Assembly: GCA_023388355.1 (NCBI GenBank)
Contig: JAEWGI010000054.1
Coordinates: 84,441 to 148,440 of the forward strand
Length of the DNA: 64,000 bases
Reading direction: 5' to 3'
Source of the DNA: Pseudomonadota bacterium
Lineage (GTDB): Bacteria > Pseudomonadota > Gammaproteobacteria > Xanthomonadales > Xanthomonadaceae
The notes below the pieces were generated by a model that was not told where the DNA came from, did no database searches, and worked only from the letters and a program-made list of their open reading frames with translations. Position numbers and translations under genes: made by a program. Below are positions 5,500-53,232 of this stretch, one piece after another. Each line of letters starts with the position of its first letter. The first letter of the stretch is position 1.

Positions 5500-5958
5500 T
5501 CAGCCCGGGCCGAACTGCTGCTCCTCCGGCGTGGCCAGGCGCACGTCCACCACTTCCACCCGCGCTTCCACCGTGCGCCCCGCCAGCGGATGGTTGCCGT
5601 CGACGGTGACGCGCTCGTCGTCGATCGCGGTCACCACCACCTCCAGCGGCCCGCGCGCGGTCTGCGCCGAGAGCTTCGCGCCCACCTGCGGCGCCGCCGC
5701 GGCCTGCAGGCGCTCGCGCGGCACCACCTGCACCAGCTCCTCATGGCGTGGGCCGAAGCCCGATTCGGGGGCGATCGTGACCCGGAAGGTGTCGCCCGGC
5801 GACTTCCCGGCCAGCGCCTGCTCCAGGCCGGGCATGACGCTGCCGGTGCCGTGCATGTACACCAGCGGCGCATGGCCGTGGGTGGAGGCGATGAGCTGGC
5901 CCTGCTCGTCGTGCAGGCTGAAGTGGACGGTGGCAATGCGGCGATCGGCGATGTCCAT
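5500..5958 (-). CDS. FKBP-type peptidyl-prolyl isomerase, SlyD-like
   Basis: At 152 residues this is a cytoplasmic proline isomerase and chaperone of the SlyD/FkpB class. The FKBP half-domains are seen in YMHGTGSVMPGLEQAL and the conserved DGNHPLAGRTV near residues 120-130, with the chaperone insert between them. The His/Cys-rich metal tail of E. coli SlyD is absent, so nickel delivery is unlikely. The frame starts at 5985 with MRAVPRSDAMDI, but the ATG at 5958 (MDIADRRIAT) fits the family better. It is monocistronic, between yqgE and the divergent tag. Confidence 0.88.
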   Translation of the reverse strand: MDIADRRIATVHFSLHDEQGQLIASTHGHAPLVYMHGTGSVMPGLEQALAGKSPGDTFRVTIAPESGFGPRHEELVQVVPRERLQAAAAPQVGAKLSAQTARGPLEVVVTAIDDERVTVDGNHPLAGRTVEARVEVVDVRLATPEEQQFGPG

Positions 5959-6044
5959 GGCGTCGCTCCGGGGGACTGCGCGCATGGTCGCGCGGCGCAG
6001 CCGCCGCGGGCAAGCCGGGCATACCCGCGGGTCCCGCGCGCCGC

Positions 6045-6050
6045 TATGCT
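6045..6050 (+). promoter_or_regulatory. -10 box of tag, leaderless spacing
   Basis: TATGCT ends 6 nt before the tag ATG at 6057, so the mRNA should be leaderless. No good -35 is seen. Confidence 0.5.
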
Positions 6051-6056
6051 GCGGCC

Positions 6057-6602
6057 ATGGCGAGCTACTGCGACTACGCGCCCGGGCATCCGCTGCACGG
6101 GCCCTACCACGACCGCGAGTACGGCTTCCCGCAGCGCGACGAAGCGGCGCTGTTCGAGCGGCTGCTGCTTGAGATCAACCAGGCCGGCCTGAGCTGGGGG
6201 ACGATCCTGGCCAAGCGCGAGGGTTTCCGCCGCGCCTACCACGGCTTCGACGTCGACGCCGTCGCCGGCTACGGCGAAGCCGACGTGGCGCGCCTGCTGG
6301 CAGACCCGGGCATCATCCGCAACAGGCTCAAGGTGGCTGCGGCGATCCACAACGCCGGCGTGGTGCGCGGCATGCGCGGTTCGCACGGCGGGTTCGCGGC
6401 GTGGCTGGATGCGCATGTGCACGATGATGACGGCCGCCCGCGCGACAAGGCATCCTGGGTGAAGCTGTTCAAGCGCACTTTCCGCTTCACCGGCGGCGAG
6501 ATCACCGGCGAGTTCCTGATGAGCCTGGGCTACCTGCCCGGCGCGCACCGCCCGGACTGCCCGGTGGCGAAACGGCTGGCGCGGCTGCGGCGCGAGGCCT
6601 GA
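6057..6602 (+). CDS. tag: DNA-3-methyladenine glycosylase I
   Basis: Tag removes N3-methyladenine from alkylated DNA to start base excision repair. The 181-residue protein has the family length. The N-terminal Cys5 with HDREYG (residues 18-23), the NQAGLSW region (41-47) containing substrate-contact residues, and the C-terminal H-x3-C of the HhH-GPD-related zinc-binding snap (GAHRPDC) are all present. It stands alone between the SlyD-like gene and the convergent superoxide dismutase gene. A strong hairpin follows. Confidence 0.95.
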   Translation: MASYCDYAPGHPLHGPYHDREYGFPQRDEAALFERLLLEINQAGLSWGTILAKREGFRRAYHGFDVDAVAGYGEADVARLLADPGIIRNRLKVAAAIHNAGVVRGMRGSHGGFAAWLDAHVHDDDGRPRDKASWVKLFKRTFRFTGGEITGEFLMSLGYLPGAHRPDCPVAKRLARLRREA

Positions 6603-6618
6603 GCGTCCGGAAAGCAGA

Positions 6619-6638
6619 CGGGCCGCTTGCGCGGCCCG
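6619..6638. terminator. Bidirectional hairpin between tag and sodA
   Basis: CGGGCCGC (6619-6626) pairs perfectly with GCGGCCCG (6631-6638) around TTGC. It lies between two convergent genes and can serve both. Only short T runs flank it. Confidence 0.7.
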
Positions 6639-6662
6639 TTGCGGTGCGGCTGCGGGGCAGGA

Positions 6663-7289
6663 TCAGCCCTTCACGGCTTCCTGGTAGCGACGCTCGACCT
6701 CGTTCCAGTCGACCACGTTGTAGAACGCGCCGATGTAGTCCGGGCGACGGTTCTGGTACTTCAGGTAGTAGGCGTGTTCCCACACGTCCAGGCCCAGGAT
6801 CGGGGTATTGCCCGAACCCACGCCCTTCATCAGCGGGTTGTCCTGGTTGGCGCTGCTCTCGACCGAGAGCTTGCCGCCCTTGTCGACCGACAGCCACGCC
6901 CAGCCGGAGCCGAAGCGCGTCAGCGCGGCCTTGGTGAAAGCTTCCTTGAAGGCGTCGAAGCCGCCCAGGTCGCTGTCGATATGCTTGGCCACCTCACCGA
7001 CCGGGTTGCCGCCGCCCTTGGGCGACATCACCGTCCAGAACAGCGAGTGGTTGGCGTGGCCGCCGGCGTTGTTGCGCAGCGGACCGCGCTTGTCCTCGGG
7101 CAGCGCATCGAGGTTGGCGATGATCTCCTCGGCGCTCTTGCCGTCCCAGTCCGTGCCTTCCAGCGCCGCGTTGGCGTTGTTGATGTAGGTCTGGTGGTGC
7201 TTGGTGTGGTGGATCTCCATCGTCTGCGCATCGATGTGCGGCTCGAGCGCGTCATAGGCATACGGCAGCTTGGGGAGGGTAAAGGCCAC
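6663..7289 (-). CDS. sodA: Superoxide dismutase, Mn type
   Basis: This cytoplasmic 208-residue dismutase of the Fe/Mn superfamily converts superoxide to hydrogen peroxide and oxygen. The four metal ligands are visible: His in EIHHTKHH, His in [10 protein letters not shown], and Asp and His in [11 protein letters not shown]. Mn-type features are the ANQDNPL stretch and GLDVWEH, in contrast to the ATPL-TVDVWEH of Fe enzymes. GTG 7289 is the better start. It gives the usual [11 protein letters not shown]-terminus and has GGAG 5 nt upstream, whereas ATG 7301 lies inside that ribosome site. The gene converges with tag. Confidence 0.95.
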
Positions 7290-7406
7290 GGCGATCTCCA
7301 TTCGGGTTCAGGGGTCCGCACTATTGTGCCGGCTGCGGAGTAAAAACGGGATCAACCGGCGCGCAATGCTGCTTTCCGGCGCGCGCCGGGTCGACCCCGG
7401 CGGCCG

Positions 7407-31661: not shown

Positions 31662-31738
31662 GGCTATGTAGCTCAGCCGGTTAGAGCACAGCACTCATAA
31701 TGCTGGGGTCGGTGGTTCGAGTCCACCCATAGCCACCA
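31662..31738 (+). tRNA. tRNA-Met (CAT), elongator
   Basis: This is a 77-nt cloverleaf with encoded CCA. The acceptor stem GGCTATG pairs with CATAGCC, the D-loop is AGCTCAGCCGGTTAGAGC, and the T-arm has GGTTCGAGTCC. The anticodon CAT is at 31696-31698 in loop CTCATAA. The anticodon stem is CAGCA/TGCTG, not the GGG/CCC of initiator tRNA, and the sequence is very close to the E. coli elongator tRNA-Met. tRNA-Ile2 (lysidine) is less likely. Confidence 0.95.
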
Positions 31739-46638: not shown

Positions 46639-47490
46639 ATGGCGACGGGCGAGGACTGGTCACGGCTGGAAGTGGAAGCGTGCGTCGCGGACTACCTGCA
46701 CATGCTGGAGTTGGAACTCAATGGCCAGCAGTTCAACAAGTCCGCGCGCATCCAGGGCTTGATGCAGAAGCTCGACGGGCGCAGCAAGGCGTCAGTGGAG
46801 TACAAGTTCCGCAACATCAGCGCGGTGATGCAGGAACTGCAGTGGCCCACCGTCAGTGGGTACAAGGCCCTGGAGAACTACCAGTTGCTACTGCTTGAGG
46901 TCGTGGAAGCGCAACTGGGCCACAGGCCAGCGCTGCAGGTAGCGGCCGAGCACGCGGTGACGCGGCCGGCAGCCATCGCGGAAGCTGTAGTCGACGAGCA
47001 GGTCTGGATCCCCAAGCCGAAGCCCAAACGCCTGAAGGAGGCACCGCCACAGTATGCGCCGCGCTTCTCCCCCGCGCGCCGCGACTACCTGGCCCGAGAG
47101 TCGCACAACCGCTCCCTGGGCAGGGCAGGCGAACTGTTCGTCATGGAGCTGGAGGCGCAGCGCCTGCACGCCGCCGGCTGCAAGGTGCTGGCCGAGCGTG
47201 TCGAGCAGGTCTCCGAAACGCAGGGCGACGGCCTGGGCTTCGATGTACTGTCCTTCGAGAGGGACGGCCGCGAACGCCTGATCGAGGTCAAGACCACGGC
47301 CTTCGGAGAACTCACACCATTCTTTGTGTCACGCAACGAACTGGCGCGCTCCAACGCGGACGCCGAGCGCTACCAGCTCTACCGCGTGTTCGACTTCCGC
47401 AAACGCCCTCGCCTGTTCAACCTGCCCGGCGCCATCGAATCCCATTGCCAGCTGGATGCGACGACCTTCCTAGCGCAGTTGGCAGGCTGA
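46639..47490 (+). CDS. DUF3883 domain protein
   Basis: This is a 283-residue soluble protein. The C-terminal half (about 155-275) is DUF3883, which resembles PD-(D/E)XK nucleases: GFDVLSFERDG followed by RLIEVKTT gives D...E-x-K. The N-terminal helical part (1-95) has the pattern of DNA-binding domains often attached to it (HMLELELNG, RSKASVEYKFRNISAVM). DUF3883 is common in restriction and defence islands but also occurs alone. Here it stands between repeats next to a restriction-modification unit, so a defence or DNA-end-processing role is inferred only. Confidence 0.8.
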   Translation: MATGEDWSRLEVEACVADYLHMLELELNGQQFNKSARIQGLMQKLDGRSKASVEYKFRNISAVMQELQWPTVSGYKALENYQLLLLEVVEAQLGHRPALQVAAEHAVTRPAAIAEAVVDEQVWIPKPKPKRLKEAPPQYAPRFSPARRDYLARESHNRSLGRAGELFVMELEAQRLHAAGCKVLAERVEQVSETQGDGLGFDVLSFERDGRERLIEVKTTAFGELTPFFVSRNELARSNADAERYQLYRVFDFRKRPRLFNLPGAIESHCQLDATTFLAQLAG

Positions 47491-47584
47491 TCCCACGTCG
47501 CGCTGATCGGCTCATGGATCAATGATTACGCGTGACGGCCGGACTCCTCCTTTCACCACCGAGGGCGGAGCTGACTCCCCGGAA

Positions 47585-47623
47585 AAATGTCCCTGACACC
47601 ATTTCCCCCTGACACCATTTCCC
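47585..47623. repeat. REP-like unit, right copy plus tandem second unit
   Basis: The first unit matches 46533-46554 over 22 bp. The second (CCCTGACACCATTTCCC) follows directly in tandem. Confidence 0.6.
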
Positions 47624-47932
47624 CACCTGGGGAATTGGACTCCAGATCGCCGTGCTACTCAAAACCGGGGGGACGTCGGATGGATCCTGCCTGTAGATAA
47701 TGAACCCGACCCCATTTCCCGGCTTGACGGGGGAGCTTACGCGTCATCAACCCGTCCTATTCCTTCGGCCTGGCCATGACGGACAAGGGGTAAACGACCT
47801 ACCCGGAGCCGGGAGCAGTTCGTTCTGTCCTATTGCCCCGGGCCGCGAAATGCTGACCCCGTTGTTCGGCTTGGTCGACGGTCTTACCTTCTGAGAATCT
47901 ACCTTGATCTAATCGAGTCGAGCTGCCCCCCG

Positions 47933-47969
47933 TTCTCAGATGCACCATAGTGGTGTAATGTGGTGCATC
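47933..47969 (+). promoter_or_regulatory. Predicted promoter and RHH operator of the restriction-modification unit
   Basis: TTCTCA (47933-47938) and TAATGT (47956-47961) are spaced by 17 bp. A palindrome with 9-bp arms GATGCACCA (47939-47947) and TGGTGCATC (47961-47969) spans the spacer and overlaps the -10. TGGTG recurs at 47951 and 47961, exactly 10 bp apart, plus CACCA at 47943. Repeated pentamers at one-turn spacing are typical operators of ribbon-helix-helix proteins. The gene directly downstream codes for such a protein. Confidence 0.6.
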
Positions 47970-47986
47970 CTTTCCGGACGCGCCAG

Positions 47987-48208
47987 ATGGTCAGCAAATC
48001 GACAACAGAACGCGACGTGGGGCTGAGGAGCACGCGGCTCTCGGTCAGTTTTCCTGCTGATCTGTACGAAACCCTCGAAGGGCTCGCTAGAGAGAAGAAG
48101 GTGTCGCTGGCCTGGGTGGTCCGCGATGCGGCAGAACAATACATACGAGATCAGTGGCCGCTGCTTGAAGCACCGTTAGCAGCGGGCAGTGGGCGAAGAG
48201 TCAAATAG
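47987..48208 (+). CDS. Ribbon-helix-helix regulator of the restriction-modification unit
   Basis: This is a 73-residue protein. The beta-strand RLSVSFPADLYETLEGLARE followed by a helix and VSLAWVVRDAAEQYI matches the CopG/Arc-type ribbon-helix-helix fold. The GTG at 47960 is also in frame but lies in the operator and near the -10, so ATG 47987 is preferred. The methyltransferase gene starts 14 bp after its stop. It probably binds the palindrome just upstream and represses its own operon, in place of the helix-turn-helix C protein of other systems (inference). Confidence 0.75.
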   Translation: MVSKSTTERDVGLRSTRLSVSFPADLYETLEGLAREKKVSLAWVVRDAAEQYIRDQWPLLEAPLAAGSGRRVK

Positions 48209-48222
48209 GAAAATACAAGCCC

Positions 48223-49347
48223 GTGCACAAATTTTTTGAGTTCTTCGCTGGCGGTGGGATGGCGCGTGCAGGCTTGGGCGAGGGTTGGGACTGCGCGTTT
48301 GCCAATGACTTCGACCCCAAGAAGGCGGCGATTTACGCAGCTAATTGGGGTTCGGACGAATTGCATGTCGGCGATGTAGCGAAGATTAGAGCCGAGGATC
48401 TTCCAGGTTGGCCAGACTTGGTGTGGGCGTCATTTCCTTGCCAGGACCTGTCGCTTGCTGGGGCAGGAGCCGGCCTTGACGGCAACCGGTCGGGGACGTT
48501 TTGGCCGTTCTGGGAACTGGTGCGAAAGCTCGCTAAGGAGAACCGTGCGCCAAAGCTCGTGGTCCTGGAGAACGTTTGCGGAGCACTCACTTCACACGGG
48601 GGGCGCGACTTCTCTGCGATCTCGTCCGCCTTATCTGGAGCGGATTATCGCTTCGGTGCTGTAGTAATAGATGCAGTGCGCTTCCTTCCGCAGTCGAGAC
48701 CTCGCCTGTTCTTCATCGGCGTGGCCGGAGACATTGAAGTTCCACCCCATCTTCGTGCGTCCCAACCGCAGTTGCCGTGGCATAACGATGCCTTGGTGAA
48801 TGCTCACAAGGATTTGTCTGGACGTGCGAAATCCAAATGGGTCTGGTGGAATCTGCCCTCTCCAGCGCCGCGTCTTACGACGTTTGCAGACCTCGTAGAA
48901 GATGAGCCTCAAGGTGTTAAATGGCATACGCCTGAAGAGACGAAGAAACTGCTTGACATGATGACCCCCCTCAACCGTTCAAAAGTTGAGAGTGCGCAGA
49001 AGAGCAAGAAGAAGATGGTGGGTGCGCTGTATCGCAGGACGCGAAATGGCGTTCAACGAGCAGAGGTTCGTTTCGATGATGTTGCTGGATGCCTGCGCAC
49101 ACCTGGTGGTGGTTCGAGTCGACAAACGATTCTCGTTGTTGACGGGAGACGAATTCGTTCTCGGCTTCTGTCCCCCCGCGAGGCGGCAAGACTGATGGGG
49201 TTGCCGGATTCTTACCGGTTGCCCGACAACTACAACGAGGCCTACCACTTGGCCGGAGACGGTGTGGCTGTGCCAGTTGTCCGCTTTCTTGCTACCAATT
49301 TGCTTGAAAAGATCCTGCCTCAACGGCAGATCGCGGTAGCGGCCTAG
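48223..49347 (+). CDS. DNA C5-cytosine methyltransferase (type II restriction-modification)
   Basis: This 374-residue enzyme has all main motifs: SAM motif I FFEFFAGGG (4-12), motif IV FPCQ with catalytic Cys73, motif VI LENV with Glu116, motif VIII Q157-S-R-P-R, and the C-terminal motifs including the RLLSPREAARLMGLPDSYRLP region. It transfers a methyl group to C5 of cytosine at an unknown site. The start is GTG with AGGA upstream. G+C and codon use are well below the flanking genes, a sign of transfer. It lies between the RHH gene and the nuclease gene, 64 bp before the latter. Confidence 0.94.
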   Translation: MHKFFEFFAGGGMARAGLGEGWDCAFANDFDPKKAAIYAANWGSDELHVGDVAKIRAEDLPGWPDLVWASFPCQDLSLAGAGAGLDGNRSGTFWPFWELVRKLAKENRAPKLVVLENVCGALTSHGGRDFSAISSALSGADYRFGAVVIDAVRFLPQSRPRLFFIGVAGDIEVPPHLRASQPQLPWHNDALVNAHKDLSGRAKSKWVWWNLPSPAPRLTTFADLVEDEPQGVKWHTPEETKKLLDMMTPLNRSKVESAQKSKKKMVGALYRRTRNGVQRAEVRFDDVAGCLRTPGGGSSRQTILVVDGRRIRSRLLSPREAARLMGLPDSYRLPDNYNEAYHLAGDGVAVPVVRFLATNLLEKILPQRQIAVAA

Positions 49348-49411
49348 ACTTCGTCGCAGTTTGATTTGCAAGTCGTTATCCTTGGCGGATGTACCACCGG
49401 GGAGCTCAGTC

Positions 49412-50152
49412 TTGAGCGCGGCAAAGATCACTACCGATAACATCAACGTCCCGTCATTTGAAACCGAGGATCTTCGCAAGAACTTGTCGGCTTTCCTCGA
49501 CACGGCTTTCAAAGACCCCACTACGGGGGTGGAAAGTAAGGTCGGAAACTTCACTTGGGGCGTCTATGCATTCTTCGACTATGACGGTGAGCCTATCTAC
49601 GTCGGCCAGACGAATGAGAAGTTGCGTACGCGCATTCGACGACATCTGACGAATCAAAGGACAGACGCCGTGGCCATGTCGGTGCTAGATCCATTTGAAG
49701 TCTATGAGATCGAAGTTTGGCCTCTGCCCGGTTTTCAGAGGAGCATGACGAAGGCGGAGAAAGAGTCGGCAAAGGCGCATTTGAATGCGCTCGAATCATT
49801 GGTCTACGAATGCGCGATCGAAAAGAGTGAGTTCAAGGCGGTTCTCAATGAAAAGGACCCGCCGCGTCCAACTGTTAGCGTGAAGCTACCGAAGTCCTTC
49901 AGGATGAGGATCGTGTCTGATGAGGTTTATAGGCTCCGATCTCATCCCGACTTCCGTATTGCACGACGTGCGCTAGTTATCTCCAGATTGGCGCAGGTAA
50001 TATCGGAGCGAAAAGTTCAAGGCGGCTTGCGCAGGGTCTTGCTTACGCAAGCGAAGCGATTGCAGTGGCTCGCTGATCGGCGGTATGTCGCACTAGGTGG
50101 GGCTGCGTCAGTGGAGAAGAAGAGTGGCGAAGAGGATGATAGCGATGAGTGA
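49412..50152 (+). CDS. GIY-YIG nuclease, predicted restriction endonuclease
   Basis: This 246-residue protein has a GIY-YIG core: G50-V-Y, then Y63-V-G, the Arg helix LRTRIRRHL (R72/R74), and Glu near 128-133. The region before residue 45 and the C-terminal 110 residues are unassigned and may read DNA. GIY-YIG restriction enzymes of the Eco29kI type are known next to C5 methyltransferases, which supports this role. TTG 49412 has GGGGAG upstream and is preferred over TTG 49361. G+C is low. The site recognised is unknown. Confidence 0.8.
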   Translation: MSAAKITTDNINVPSFETEDLRKNLSAFLDTAFKDPTTGVESKVGNFTWGVYAFFDYDGEPIYVGQTNEKLRTRIRRHLTNQRTDAVAMSVLDPFEVYEIEVWPLPGFQRSMTKAEKESAKAHLNALESLVYECAIEKSEFKAVLNEKDPPRPTVSVKLPKSFRMRIVSDEVYRLRSHPDFRIARRALVISRLAQVISERKVQGGLRRVLLTQAKRLQWLADRRYVALGGAASVEKKSGEEDDSDE

Positions 50153-50321
50153 GTCAGAGCCCACTCCAAAAGAAGGGGGCTCCTGGATCGAGGATGAGCG
50201 ACCTTCGACCTCATGCCTACGTGCCCACCACCAGGGGGGAGAGCGCCATGGAGCTGCAAGAAGCGCCCGCCTAGGAGCTACTGGTTCCGCGTATCTCATC
50301 GCTGACTGCAGCGTGCGGTGA
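50145..50321 (+). CDS. Possible small ORF overlapping the nuclease stop
   Basis: This is a 58-residue frame from ATG 50145, overlapping the nuclease stop by 8 bp in another frame. It has a hydrophilic composition with no recognised domain. The overlap is like translational coupling, but no strong ribosome site is seen. It may be a truncated third gene of the unit or chance. Confidence 0.25.
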   Translation: MSESEPTPKEGGSWIEDERPSTSCLRAHHQGGERHGAARSARLGATGSAYLIADCSVR

Positions 50322-50538
50322 ACTTGTTGTCACCGCACGATGGCCAATCGCCTCACAGCCGCGGCTACCAAATCCGCCGGCCATCCTAGAGGCTGCGCGC
50401 AGGCGGAAGGGCGTGGAGCAGATCTAATTGGCCGGGCTTGGGCGACAGAGTAACGGGGGTCATGTTCACTTTTTCTAGCAGCCAAGAGAAGAACGGGCGG
50501 CTCAAGGCCGCCCGTTCTTCTGTCTCAGCGATTTCAGG
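50322..50538. other. Gap between the restriction-modification unit and aceE
   Basis: Apart from the terminator at 50488-50520, nothing coding is seen. G+C rises again toward aceE. Confidence 0.4.
50488..50520. terminator. Strong bidirectional terminator after aceE and the restriction unit
   Basis: A perfect 14-bp stem (GAAGAACGGGCGGC / GCCGCCCGTTCTTC) around TCAAG lies between two convergent gene groups, with T-rich flanks on both sides (TTTTTC at 50470, TTCTTCTGTCTC). It probably belonged originally to aceE. Confidence 0.85.
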
Positions 50539-53232
50539 TCACACCCCCAACGGATTCGGCTTCTCCTGATCAATCTTGTACAGCTTGATCGCCCGGGCCG
50601 CATCCTTCGCCGTCATCTTCCCGTCCTTCGCCAGCGCGTCGATCGCCGCGTGGGCGATGTAGTAGCGGTCCACCTCGAAGTGGCGGCGCAGGTTGGCGCG
50701 GGTGTCGGAGCGGCCGAAGCCGTCGGTGCCGAGGACGGTGTAGGTGCGCGGGATGAAGCCGCGGATCTGGTCGGTGAAGTTGCGCACGTAGTCCGAGGCG
50801 GCGACCACTGGGCCCGCGGGGCGGGACTCCAGGCATTCGGTGACGTGGGCCTTGCGGGGCTTGGAGTCGGGGTGCATGCGGTTCCAGCGCTCGACGTCGT
50901 AGCCGTCGCGGCGCAGTTCGGTGAAGCTGGGGCAGGACCAGATGTCGGCGGTGACGCCGAAGTCCTTGTCCAGCAGTTCGGCCGCGGCGATGGCCTCGCG
51001 CAGGATGGTGCCGCTGCCCATCAGCTGCACGCGCACCTCGCCCTTCTTGAGCTTGGCGCCGGCGTCCTTGAGCAGGTACATGCCCTTGATGACGTTCTCG
51101 GCCGCGCCCTCGGGAAGGTCGGGGTGGCTGTAGTTCTCGTTCATCAGGGTCAGGTAGAAGTACTCGTCCACCTGGTCCTCGACCATGCGCTTCATGCCGT
51201 GCTGCACGATCACCGCCACTTCGCCGGCGAAGGTCGGGTCGTAGCTGCGGCAGTTGGGGATGGCGCCGGACAGCAGGTGGCTGTGGCCGTCCTCGTGCTG
51301 CAGGCCCTCGCCGTTGAGGGTGGTGCGCCCGGCGGTGCCGCCGAGCAGGAAGCCGCGCGCGCGCATGTCGGCCGCCTGCCAGGCGGCGTCGCCCACGCGC
51401 TGGAAGCCGAACATGGAGTAGTAGATGTAGAACGGGATCAGCTGCAGATTGTTGGTGCTGTAACTGGTGGCGGCGGCCATCCAGGAGGCGAACGCGCCCG
51501 CCTCGGTGATGCCTTCCTGCAGCACCTGGCCGGTGGCGTCTTCGCGGTAGTACATCAGCTGGTCGCGGTCGACCGGCTTGTACTTCTGCCCTTCCGGCGC
51601 GTAGATGCCGATCTGGCGGAACAGGCCTTCCATGCCGAAGGTGCGCGCCTCGTCGCAGACGATGGGCACCACGCGCGGGCCAACCTGCTTGTCGCGCAGG
51701 ATGATGTTGAGCGACTGCACGAAGGCCATGGTGGTGGACATCTCCCGCTCGCCGGTGCTCTTGGTGAGCCGTTCGAACACCTCGCGCTTGGGCGCGGTGA
51801 GCGACTCGTCGGCCTTGCGGCGACGCTTGGGCACGAAGCCGCCCAGCGCGTTGCGGCGCTCGAGCAGGTACTGCACCTCGTCGGACTTCTCGCCCGGGTG
51901 GTAGAACGGGATCTGGCCGTCCTTGAGCTGCTCGTCGTCGACCGGGATCTTGAAGCGGTCGCGGAACGCGCGCACCGCGTCGTCGTCGAGCTTCTTGGTG
52001 TTGTGGGTGGGGTTGAGCGCCTCGCCGGCGCTGCCCAGGCCGTAGCCCTTGACCGTCTTGGCCAGGATCACGGTGGGCATGCCCTTGGTCTTCATCGCCT
52101 TGTCGTAGGCGGCGTAGACCTTGTGCGGGTCGTGGCCGCCGCGGTTGAGGCGCCAGATGTCCTCGTCGGACAGGCTGGCCACCATGGCGGCGGTTTCCGG
52201 GTACTTGCCGAAGAAGTGCTCGCGCGTGTAGGCGCCGCCGAAGGCCTTGCAGTTCTGGTATTCGCCGTCGACGGTTTCCATCATCAGCTTCTTGAGGATG
52301 CCCTGCTTGTCGTTGGCCAGCAGCGGATCCCAGTAGCTGCCCCAGATGGTCTTGACCACGTTCCAGCCGGCGCCGCGGAACTGGCTTTCCAGTTCCTGGA
52401 TGATCTTGCCGTTGCCGCGCACCGGGCCGTCCAGGCGCTGCAGGTTGCAGCTGACCACGAACACCAGGTTGTCCAGGCCCTCGCGGCCGGCGATCGACAG
52501 CGCGCCCAGGCTCTCGGGCTCGTCGGTTTCGCCGTCGCCGAGGAAGCACCACACCTTGCGGTCGGACTTGGGCAGCAGGCCGCGCGATTCGAGGTACTTC
52601 CAGTTGCGCGCCTGGTAGATCGCGGCGATCGGGCCCAGGCCCATCGACACCGTGGGCACCTGCCAGAAGTCGGGCATCAGCCAGGGGTGCGGGTAGGACG
52701 AGATGCCGCGGCCGTCGACTTCCATGCGGAAGTTGTCGAGCTGCGATTCGCTGATCCGGCCCTCGAGGAAGGCGCGCGCGTAGATGCCCGGCGAGCTGTG
52801 GCCCTGCGGGGCGACGAGGTCGCCAGGATGGTCGCCGTCGGCGCCACGGAAGAAGTGGTTGAAGCCGACGTCATACAGCGTGGCCGAGCTGGCGAAGCTG
52901 GCGATGTGGCCGCCAAGGTCGCCGGGCTTGCGGTTGGCGCGCACCACCATGGCCATCGCGTTCCAGCGGATGATCGAGCGGATCTTCCACTCCAGGGTCT
53001 GGTCGCCGGGGATCTTCGGCTCCAGGTGGGGCGCGATGGTGTTGATGTATTCGGTGGTCGGGGCGAACGGCAGGTGGGCGCCGGCGCGGCGGGTCAGCTC
53101 GACCATGTCCTGCAGCAGCTGATGCGCGCGCTCGGGCCCGCTGTGGTCGATCACCGCCTTGAGCGATTCGATCCACTCCCGGGTTTCGGTGGGGTCCGGG
53201 TCGTTGTGCAGCACATCGGTCAGCCAGTTCAT
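50539..53232 (-). CDS. aceE: Pyruvate dehydrogenase E1 component, homodimeric type
   Basis: This 897-residue thiamine-diphosphate enzyme decarboxylates pyruvate and passes the acetyl group to E2 lipoate. N-terminal NDPDPTETREW is typical of the alpha2 form. The ThDP motif runs from GDGETDEPES to the CN about 30 residues later (near residue 230-260). ATG 53232 is chosen: GGAG lies 7 nt upstream, and the protein begins MNWLTDVLHNDPDP. ATG 53238 is possible; the longer frame to 53529 is not. A TAGAAT -10 at 53292-53297 gives a 50-nt leader. E2 and E3 genes are not in the window. Confidence 0.97.
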   Translation of the reverse strand: MNWLTDVLHNDPDPTETREWIESLKAVIDHSGPERAHQLLQDMVELTRRAGAHLPFAPTTEYINTIAPHLEPKIPGDQTLEWKIRSIIRWNAMAMVVRANRKPGDLGGHIASFASSATLYDVGFNHFFRGADGDHPGDLVAPQGHSSPGIYARAFLEGRISESQLDNFRMEVDGRGISSYPHPWLMPDFWQVPTVSMGLGPIAAIYQARNWKYLESRGLLPKSDRKVWCFLGDGETDEPESLGALSIAGREGLDNLVFVVSCNLQRLDGPVRGNGKIIQELESQFRGAGWNVVKTIWGSYWDPLLANDKQGILKKLMMETVDGEYQNCKAFGGAYTREHFFGKYPETAAMVASLSDEDIWRLNRGGHDPHKVYAAYDKAMKTKGMPTVILAKTVKGYGLGSAGEALNPTHNTKKLDDDAVRAFRDRFKIPVDDEQLKDGQIPFYHPGEKSDEVQYLLERRNALGGFVPKRRRKADESLTAPKREVFERLTKSTGEREMSTTMAFVQSLNIILRDKQVGPRVVPIVCDEARTFGMEGLFRQIGIYAPEGQKYKPVDRDQLMYYREDATGQVLQEGITEAGAFASWMAAATSYSTNNLQLIPFYIYYSMFGFQRVGDAAWQAADMRARGFLLGGTAGRTTLNGEGLQHEDGHSHLLSGAIPNCRSYDPTFAGEVAVIVQHGMKRMVEDQVDEYFYLTLMNENYSHPDLPEGAAENVIKGMYLLKDAGAKLKKGEVRVQLMGSGTILREAIAAAELLDKDFGVTADIWSCPSFTELRRDGYDVERWNRMHPDSKPRKAHVTECLESRPAGPVVAASDYVRNFTDQIRGFIPRTYTVLGTDGFGRSDTRANLRRHFEVDRYYIAHAAIDALAKDGKMTAKDAARAIKLYKIDQEKPNPLGV

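Follow-up and report, generated by a model that had tools for sequence, protein, structure and literature searches.

A ribbon-helix-helix protein gene with a recurring upstream element at the head of a putative restriction-modification operon

A restriction-modification (R-M) system that enters a new cell must protect its host before the nuclease turns active. As means of R-M control, excerpts of a 2025 review (PMC12707154) name C proteins, antisense RNA, promoter methylation and autoregulation by the methyltransferase; the dedicated regulators among these are either helix-turn-helix (HTH) C proteins or methyltransferases. A term count of the review shows no word starting with "ribbon". The subject here is an operon in a 64-kb stretch of a Xanthomonadaceae genome (contig JAEWGI010000054.1; the whole stretch is called the window), in which an operator-like inverted repeat is followed by genes for a ribbon-helix-helix (RHH) protein, a C5-cytosine DNA methyltransferase and a GIY-YIG nuclease. 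With a probability of roughly 0.77, this is a type II-like R-M operon whose first gene encodes a dedicated autoregulator. The RHH protein appears to be a portable autoregulator of R-M operons and an analogue of the HTH C proteins. Its placing where a C protein would stand, as the original prediction proposed, is supported by homologues that front unrelated types of methyltransferase and share a common upstream element.

The C proteins of systems such as PvuII, BamHI, Esp1396I and Kpn2I are alike in that a small DNA-binding protein is encoded with the R-M genes, a repeated element lies near its start, and the regulator is found with R-M systems of differing specificity. However, C proteins bind via an HTH, and the targets that they typically activate are their own promoter and the gene of the nuclease (excerpts of PMC12707154), whereas the window regulator is a ribbon-helix-helix protein that heads one RHH-M-R operon (regulator, methyltransferase, nuclease). 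Another parallel comes from toxin-antitoxin operons, which RHH repressors govern: according to excerpts of PMC3874152, the gene of the RHH repressor omega or PaaR comes first, before a protective and a harmful gene, and the operator is repeated. This likeness is one of organisation, and the pair is antitoxin and toxin there, methyltransferase and nuclease here.

RHH repressors of the MetJ/CopG/Arc type share with the window protein the RHH domain (Pfam) and boxes, palindromic or repeated, at a spacing of about one helical turn, as in the case of MetJ, but the window protein belongs to a family of its own, marked by a conserved AWVVRDAAEKYxxxxWPLL-like region. As for the nuclease, Eco29kI, Cfr42I and Hpy188I likewise have a GIY-YIG catalytic domain (excerpts of PMC4081073), and that of the window stands beside a DNA methyltransferase; unlike these enzymes, it has a helical C-terminal part, and in sequence it matches neither their families nor their structures. 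A literature search covering mostly non-subscription papers turned up no R-M system under the control of an RHH protein, and the RHH passage in the excerpts of PMC3346939 is on a partition protein. Existing records annotate the RHH genes as "CopG family transcriptional regulator" or "ribbon-helix-helix domain-containing protein", a generic labelling which indicates that the genes are catalogued, yet apparently not recognised as a controller family.

What company do the relatives of this protein keep? Searches with the RHH family alone covered whole genomes (1387 look-ups, some genomes being repeated), viral contigs (6 loci) and plasmids (41 records, 35 of them Xanthomonas; 13 were analysed, and the other 28 are all Xanthomonas). 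A score of at least 45 bits against the RHH profile (A1), a cut picked after the scores were seen, defines a strong set of 31 loci (12 genome, 6 viral and 13 plasmid), from which the window and a Nitrosovibrio locus (L012) are excluded. A DNA methyltransferase gene lies next to the RHH gene in 29 of the 31: 10/12 in genomes, 6/6 in viral contigs and 13/13 in plasmids. These calls come from Pfam, from record annotation or from visible resemblance only (L110 to L108; L134 and L136 to L135); in L134, which is counted, the methyltransferase is unannotated, its frame is apparently interrupted, and the piece tested had no Pfam match.

The methyltransferases concerned are of several types. Behind the RHH gene stands a C5 enzyme in L105, L118, L125 and L127, as well as in L106 and L109, where a Vsr-like gene lies in between; an N6_N4 enzyme in L091, L107, L108, L110, L132, L145, L146 and L147; an MT-A70 enzyme in L090; and an Eco57I/N6-type enzyme in L119, L126, L128-L131, L133-L137, L143, L144 and L148. 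A BsuBI/PstI nuclease is annotated after the methyltransferase in the Xanthomonas records L126, L134, L135 and L137. Reassortment is suggested by the viral RHH protein of L110, where the 875-aa methyltransferase resembles the one in L108: it shares 83% identity with the RHH proteins of the Xanthomonas plasmids L126 and L135, which precede an Eco57I-type methyltransferase and a PstI-type nuclease; in a tree of 30 rows, made from short sequences, these three group with L108 and L144 (support 0.976). The nearest relative of the window RHH in the tree set, at 61%, is that of L118, which stands ahead of a different C5 methyltransferase.

The second line of evidence is the element upstream. In the window it consists of two palindrome arms, GATGCACCA (47939-47947) and TGGTGCATC (47961-47969), which are complementary at 9/9 positions, with CACCA at 47943-47947 and an additional inner TGGTG at 47951-47955, the two TGGTG boxes being spaced 10 bp apart. 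A conserved 17-nt core, TGGTGTAATGTGGTGCA (47951-47967), has a single occurrence in the window when up to 3 mismatches are allowed, where shuffles lead one to expect 0.07. When TGGTGTAAWGTGGTGCA was sought within 200 bp upstream of each RHH gene, it was found with 0-4 mismatches in all 31 strong loci outside the window system, and in the initial scan set only 0-2 of 100 shuffles per strong locus equalled the observed match. The best matches had 3 to 6 mismatches in the middle tier of RHH loci (29-44 bits, n=10) and 6-8 in 11 weak RHH matches (L093-L103). Among loci scanned once the pattern was fixed, the strong L143-L148 all had it (6/6, 0-3 mismatches), and the weak L149 had 6. Across 23 loci including the window and L012, core positions G1, T3, G4, A6, G11, T13 and G14 (numbered from 0) do not vary, and most of the loci have an inverted CACC about 8 bp upstream of the core.

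In its 82-aa form the window protein matches RHH_5 (1e-07) and RHH_1 (3.6e-07) with 32 and 30.3 bits against Pfam cut-offs of 26 and 20.5; these were the only Pfam families at E <=0.001, and no HTH fold was found. Its matches among Protein Data Bank (PDB) sequences were CopG-family proteins, ORF56 and CdbA only (best E 0.0022). An RHH homologue, P0121, has 90% identity and the identical start. A search of phages made with a different query, the RHH homologue P0163, gave no match.

The layout of the operon (Table 1) agrees with the original prediction: ORF coordinates and the Pfam and NCBIfam searches bear out its three genes, their order and their strand, and the operator-like palindrome it described is real, with its core kept 5' of RHH homologues elsewhere. 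The gaps between genes are 14 nt (RHH to methyltransferase) and 64 nt (methyltransferase to nuclease), the latter falling to 13 nt with the upstream TTG. Of the two possible nuclease starts, the TTG at 49412 is likelier, because the database copy is 246 aa long and the start of most aligned homologues falls nearby.

Table 1. Coordinates of the operon and its parts in the window
Feature	Position	Strand	Basis or remark
Operator-like inverted repeat, RHH, C5 methyltransferase and GIY-YIG nuclease	47939-50152	+	
Operator-like element	47939..47969	+	Sequence reading; single match in the window; kept 5' of RHH homologues
RHH regulator (putative), 73 aa	47987..48208	+	Pfam RHH_5/RHH_1 above gathering score
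RHH alternative start, 82 aa	GTG 47960	+	Start falls inside the operator-like element
C5-cytosine DNA methyltransferase, 374 aa	48223..49347	+	PF00145, TIGR00675
GIY-YIG nuclease, 246 aa, putative restriction enzyme	49412..50152	+	PF01541; upstream TTG 49361 possible

The operon has a G+C content of 0.52-0.60, against 0.63-0.71 in its flanks. Just 5' of it lies a NOV_C-domain gene (46639-47490) matching the PADLOC candidate defence family PDC-S36 with 357 bits; a similar gene is found 3' of the GIY-YIG gene in L018. On the other side an ORF on the opposite strand presumably encodes pyruvate dehydrogenase E1. An Rfam scan of 47000-50600 gave no match, no tRNA that might serve as integration site was found at the operon (the sole tRNA found is at 31662), and E. 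coli genomes have no DNA match to it.

How might such an operon be controlled? RHH dimers would bind the CACCA/TGGTG half-sites, that is, the two TGGTG boxes, whose spacing is close to one helical turn, and the one inverted copy. Bound RHH would sit over or beside the promoter and repress the entire RHH-M-R transcript, and would in this way control both the methyltransferase and the nuclease. Since a new host cell contains no RHH, the operon is proposed to be expressed strongly upon entry; by gene order, the methyltransferase comes before the nuclease. Later, RHH would build up and keep both enzymes low. We infer the sign of this control, and autorepression of a single transcript appears the most likely.

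The methyltransferase matches PF00145 (7.6e-46, Pfam) and TIGR00675 (2.3e-43, NCBIfam), and its translation shows what we take to be the PCQ, ENV and QxRxR motifs. In PADLOC it matches DruM2 (PDLC00028, 546 bits) and MTase_II (PDLC03243, 372 bits). A Druantia system finds no support in the four neighbouring proteins scanned, of which the methyltransferase alone matches a Dru model. The methyltransferase gene adjoins an endonuclease gene, which is the arrangement of type II R-M systems.

The nuclease matches PF01541 (6.2e-07, Pfam) and carries the GIY-YIG superfamily motif, with Y52, Y63, R74, H78, E128 and N146 invariant in 32 aligned sequences; as elsewhere in the superfamily, these residues are presumably catalytic. 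Loss of the catalytic Arg and Glu, which the original prediction had named as speaking against it, is thus not seen, R74 and E128 being kept throughout. The structural model (pLDDT 80.2) has a GIY-YIG domain and a helical C-terminal part. Kinship of the enzyme with Eco29kI finds no support in its sequence: no Eco29kI family was matched in Pfam or NCBIfam at E <=0.001, PDB sequences gave weak UvrC matches only up to E 1, and among GIY-YIG folds UvrC matches best. Hpy188I is a weak Foldseek row (E 2.9), and Eco29kI is absent among the Foldseek matches listed, although the two may still be related in fold. The nuclease has 3 matches in phage records, one at 75%, and a search of 200 genomes from the order of Nitrosovibrio returned the already known genome only.

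How common is the pair? Relatives of the nuclease were collected in 80 genome loci (88 with plasmid and phage loci), and in 78 of the 80 the nuclease has a methyltransferase relative close by, the remaining two beginning at contig edges. A compact R-M unit in which an RHH protein takes the position of a C protein remains the best reading of the operon, but the uncommonness that the original prediction saw does not extend to the GIY-YIG/C5 pair, which is itself common. The same methyltransferase also has other partners. In L125 and L127 it stands with a nuclease like PADLOC PDLC03501, and no GIY-YIG relative is present in the stretch examined (L105 has a 104-aa piece); in L138, L139 and L141 it stands with a DUF4928 protein (Pfam on L138). 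On pAX22 and related plasmids this DUF4928 protein occupies the nuclease position beside the same methyltransferase family (L138:2224-4515), and DUF4928 may be a restriction enzyme. Because the nuclease partners vary in this way, the GIY-YIG protein is held to be a likely, unproven restriction enzyme, and it is likely the sole one of this operon. The idea that it substitutes for Vsr is disfavoured, as a Vsr-like gene is nearby in 16/80 loci.

A different small protein, the second family (A3), precedes the methyltransferase in 39/80 genome loci (44/88 with plasmid and phage loci), often overlapping its start, with the consensus DRINLRLSxETFxAIDxARxxRPGNVSRNTWITEAIEEKLAR. Two of four members tested match Pfam RHH_1 with 14.4 and 15.2 bits (cut-off 20.5) and the other two do not match at all; the monomer model is of low confidence (pLDDT 65.9), with an extended segment then two helices and no meaningful fold match. 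With a match below the cut-off and a weak model, RHH is only a likely reading for this family. A common ancestor with the first family is not supported, the hhalign comparison with the A1 profile not being significant. GGCGCC-N5-GGCGCC lies around the second-family start in 43/44 loci, and the remaining 356,639 bp of these loci hold 7 matches, although the pattern was derived from the loci in which it was counted. Plasmid pAX22 has a similar protein and element ahead of its methyltransferase-DUF4928 pair.

Several observations weigh against reading the window operon as an R-M operon with its own RHH autoregulator. In L113 (892-2523) and L114 (1574-3154), the RHH gene and an operator-like site are followed by a TrlF/Ppl-like ATPase (by Pfam in both, and by PADLOC and NCBIfam in L113) and no methyltransferase. 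The plasmids from Xanthomonas are closely related, as are the Eco57I ones, so that the independent events number fewer than 29. In the middle tier a methyltransferase comes next in only 5 of the 10 loci (L117, L120, L121, L122 and L149), the others having an SNF2/DrmD-like helicase (L092, L123 and L124) or unrelated genes (L115 and L116). The element consensus was drawn up after most test loci had been inspected, and a scan of the region for sigma-70-like promoters came up empty (0, against a mean of 1.3 in shuffles). The window-type RHH family occurs in only 1/80 GIY-YIG loci (L012), and another putative type II nuclease, like PDLC03501, is also present in 23/80 (profile score of at least 398, two proteins having been tested against PADLOC; weaker downstream matches in L009 and L041 fall below the count).

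This last point lends some weight to a different view, in which the methyltransferase would in effect be an orphan, with the GIY-YIG protein serving as an accessory nuclease, for example in the repair of deaminated 5-methylcytosine. The loci in which the methyltransferase stands with a PDLC03501-like nuclease or DUF4928 and lacks a GIY-YIG relative fit it as well. However, 55 of the 78 methyltransferase loci have no PDLC03501-like gene at that score, although some end at contig ends; the repair role is often taken already by the Vsr-like nuclease nearby; and nucleases swapping around one methyltransferase are what alternative restriction enzymes would be expected to produce. The orphan methyltransferase is therefore judged unlikely. 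Could the RHH protein instead act as a classical C protein does, activating the operon, repressing it at high level and making the nuclease come late? The three half-sites of the element and the missing sigma-70 promoter, which fits one that depends on an activator, would suit this. Yet methyltransferase and nuclease are co-directional in one apparent operon, and activation would not delay one relative to the other; moreover, omega and PaaR, the RHH regulators of three-gene toxin-antitoxin operons, are strict repressors in the excerpts of PMC3874152. Activation of this kind is rather improbable.

Control by promoter DNA methylation, not by RHH alone, draws on the second-family element, which holds GGCGCC twice, a palindrome that a C5 methyltransferase could modify. 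The window element contains no GGCGCC; control by methylation is judged distinctly improbable. Finally, the RHH protein might be an antitoxin-like or partition-type protein and the methyltransferase a chance neighbour, since several weak RHH matches (L093-L103) lie, as judged by eye, beside toxin-like genes. It is very hard to square with the 29/31 strong homologues that front methyltransferase operons and the element present in 31/31, both of which the weak matches lack; L093-L103, L115 and L116 gave no match to any of 11 reference methyltransferases.

Some loci of the RHH searches are of interest in their own right. In L092, L123 and L124, the RHH gene lies directly 5' of an SNF2-type helicase gene and has operator-like sites with 3-4 mismatches; the helicase of L124, the sole one of the three tested against families, matches the DISARM protein DrmD (392 bits). 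L116 has an RHH match of 33 bits beside an AIR-synthase-type ORF, with an operator-like site at 3 mismatches. In L109, below the RHH gene and an operator-like site, a 504-aa protein (5802-7316) follows the Vsr-C5 methyltransferase pair; it has no PADLOC or NCBIfam match and is a candidate for an as yet unrecognised restriction enzyme.

Taken with the autorepression proposed for the window operon, these data lead to a broader proposal. It is fairly probable that a second, undescribed family of R-M controllers exists, made of an RHH protein and a portable operator, CACCA-n3-TGGTG-n5-TGGTG, and shuffled among R-M operons of the C5, N4/N6, MT-A70 and Eco57I types, and, in related proteins, perhaps also among defence operons of DISARM-helicase-like and TrlF/Ppl-like kinds, with a separate RHH-like family (GGCGCC-N5-GGCGCC) recruited to the same slot. 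The regulator and operator would then form a cassette reassorted among R-M operons of differing chemistry, and possibly other defence operons. If this is true, the common operator means that a system already in the cell could repress a newcomer, so that cross-talk or mutual exclusion between unrelated plasmid immune systems becomes possible.

An RHH family with its own operator, accompanying unrelated methyltransferases and often carried on plasmids, would be an independent solution to the timing problem that every incoming R-M system faces, and defence operons that share a switch, and are thus able to interfere with one another, would become predictable. The RHH gene and its element may also serve as a search key to R-M and defence operons in which the remaining genes go unrecognised. 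The recurrence of this gene with its matching element before unrelated DNA-modification operons points to a little-noticed family of switches in bacterial immune systems.

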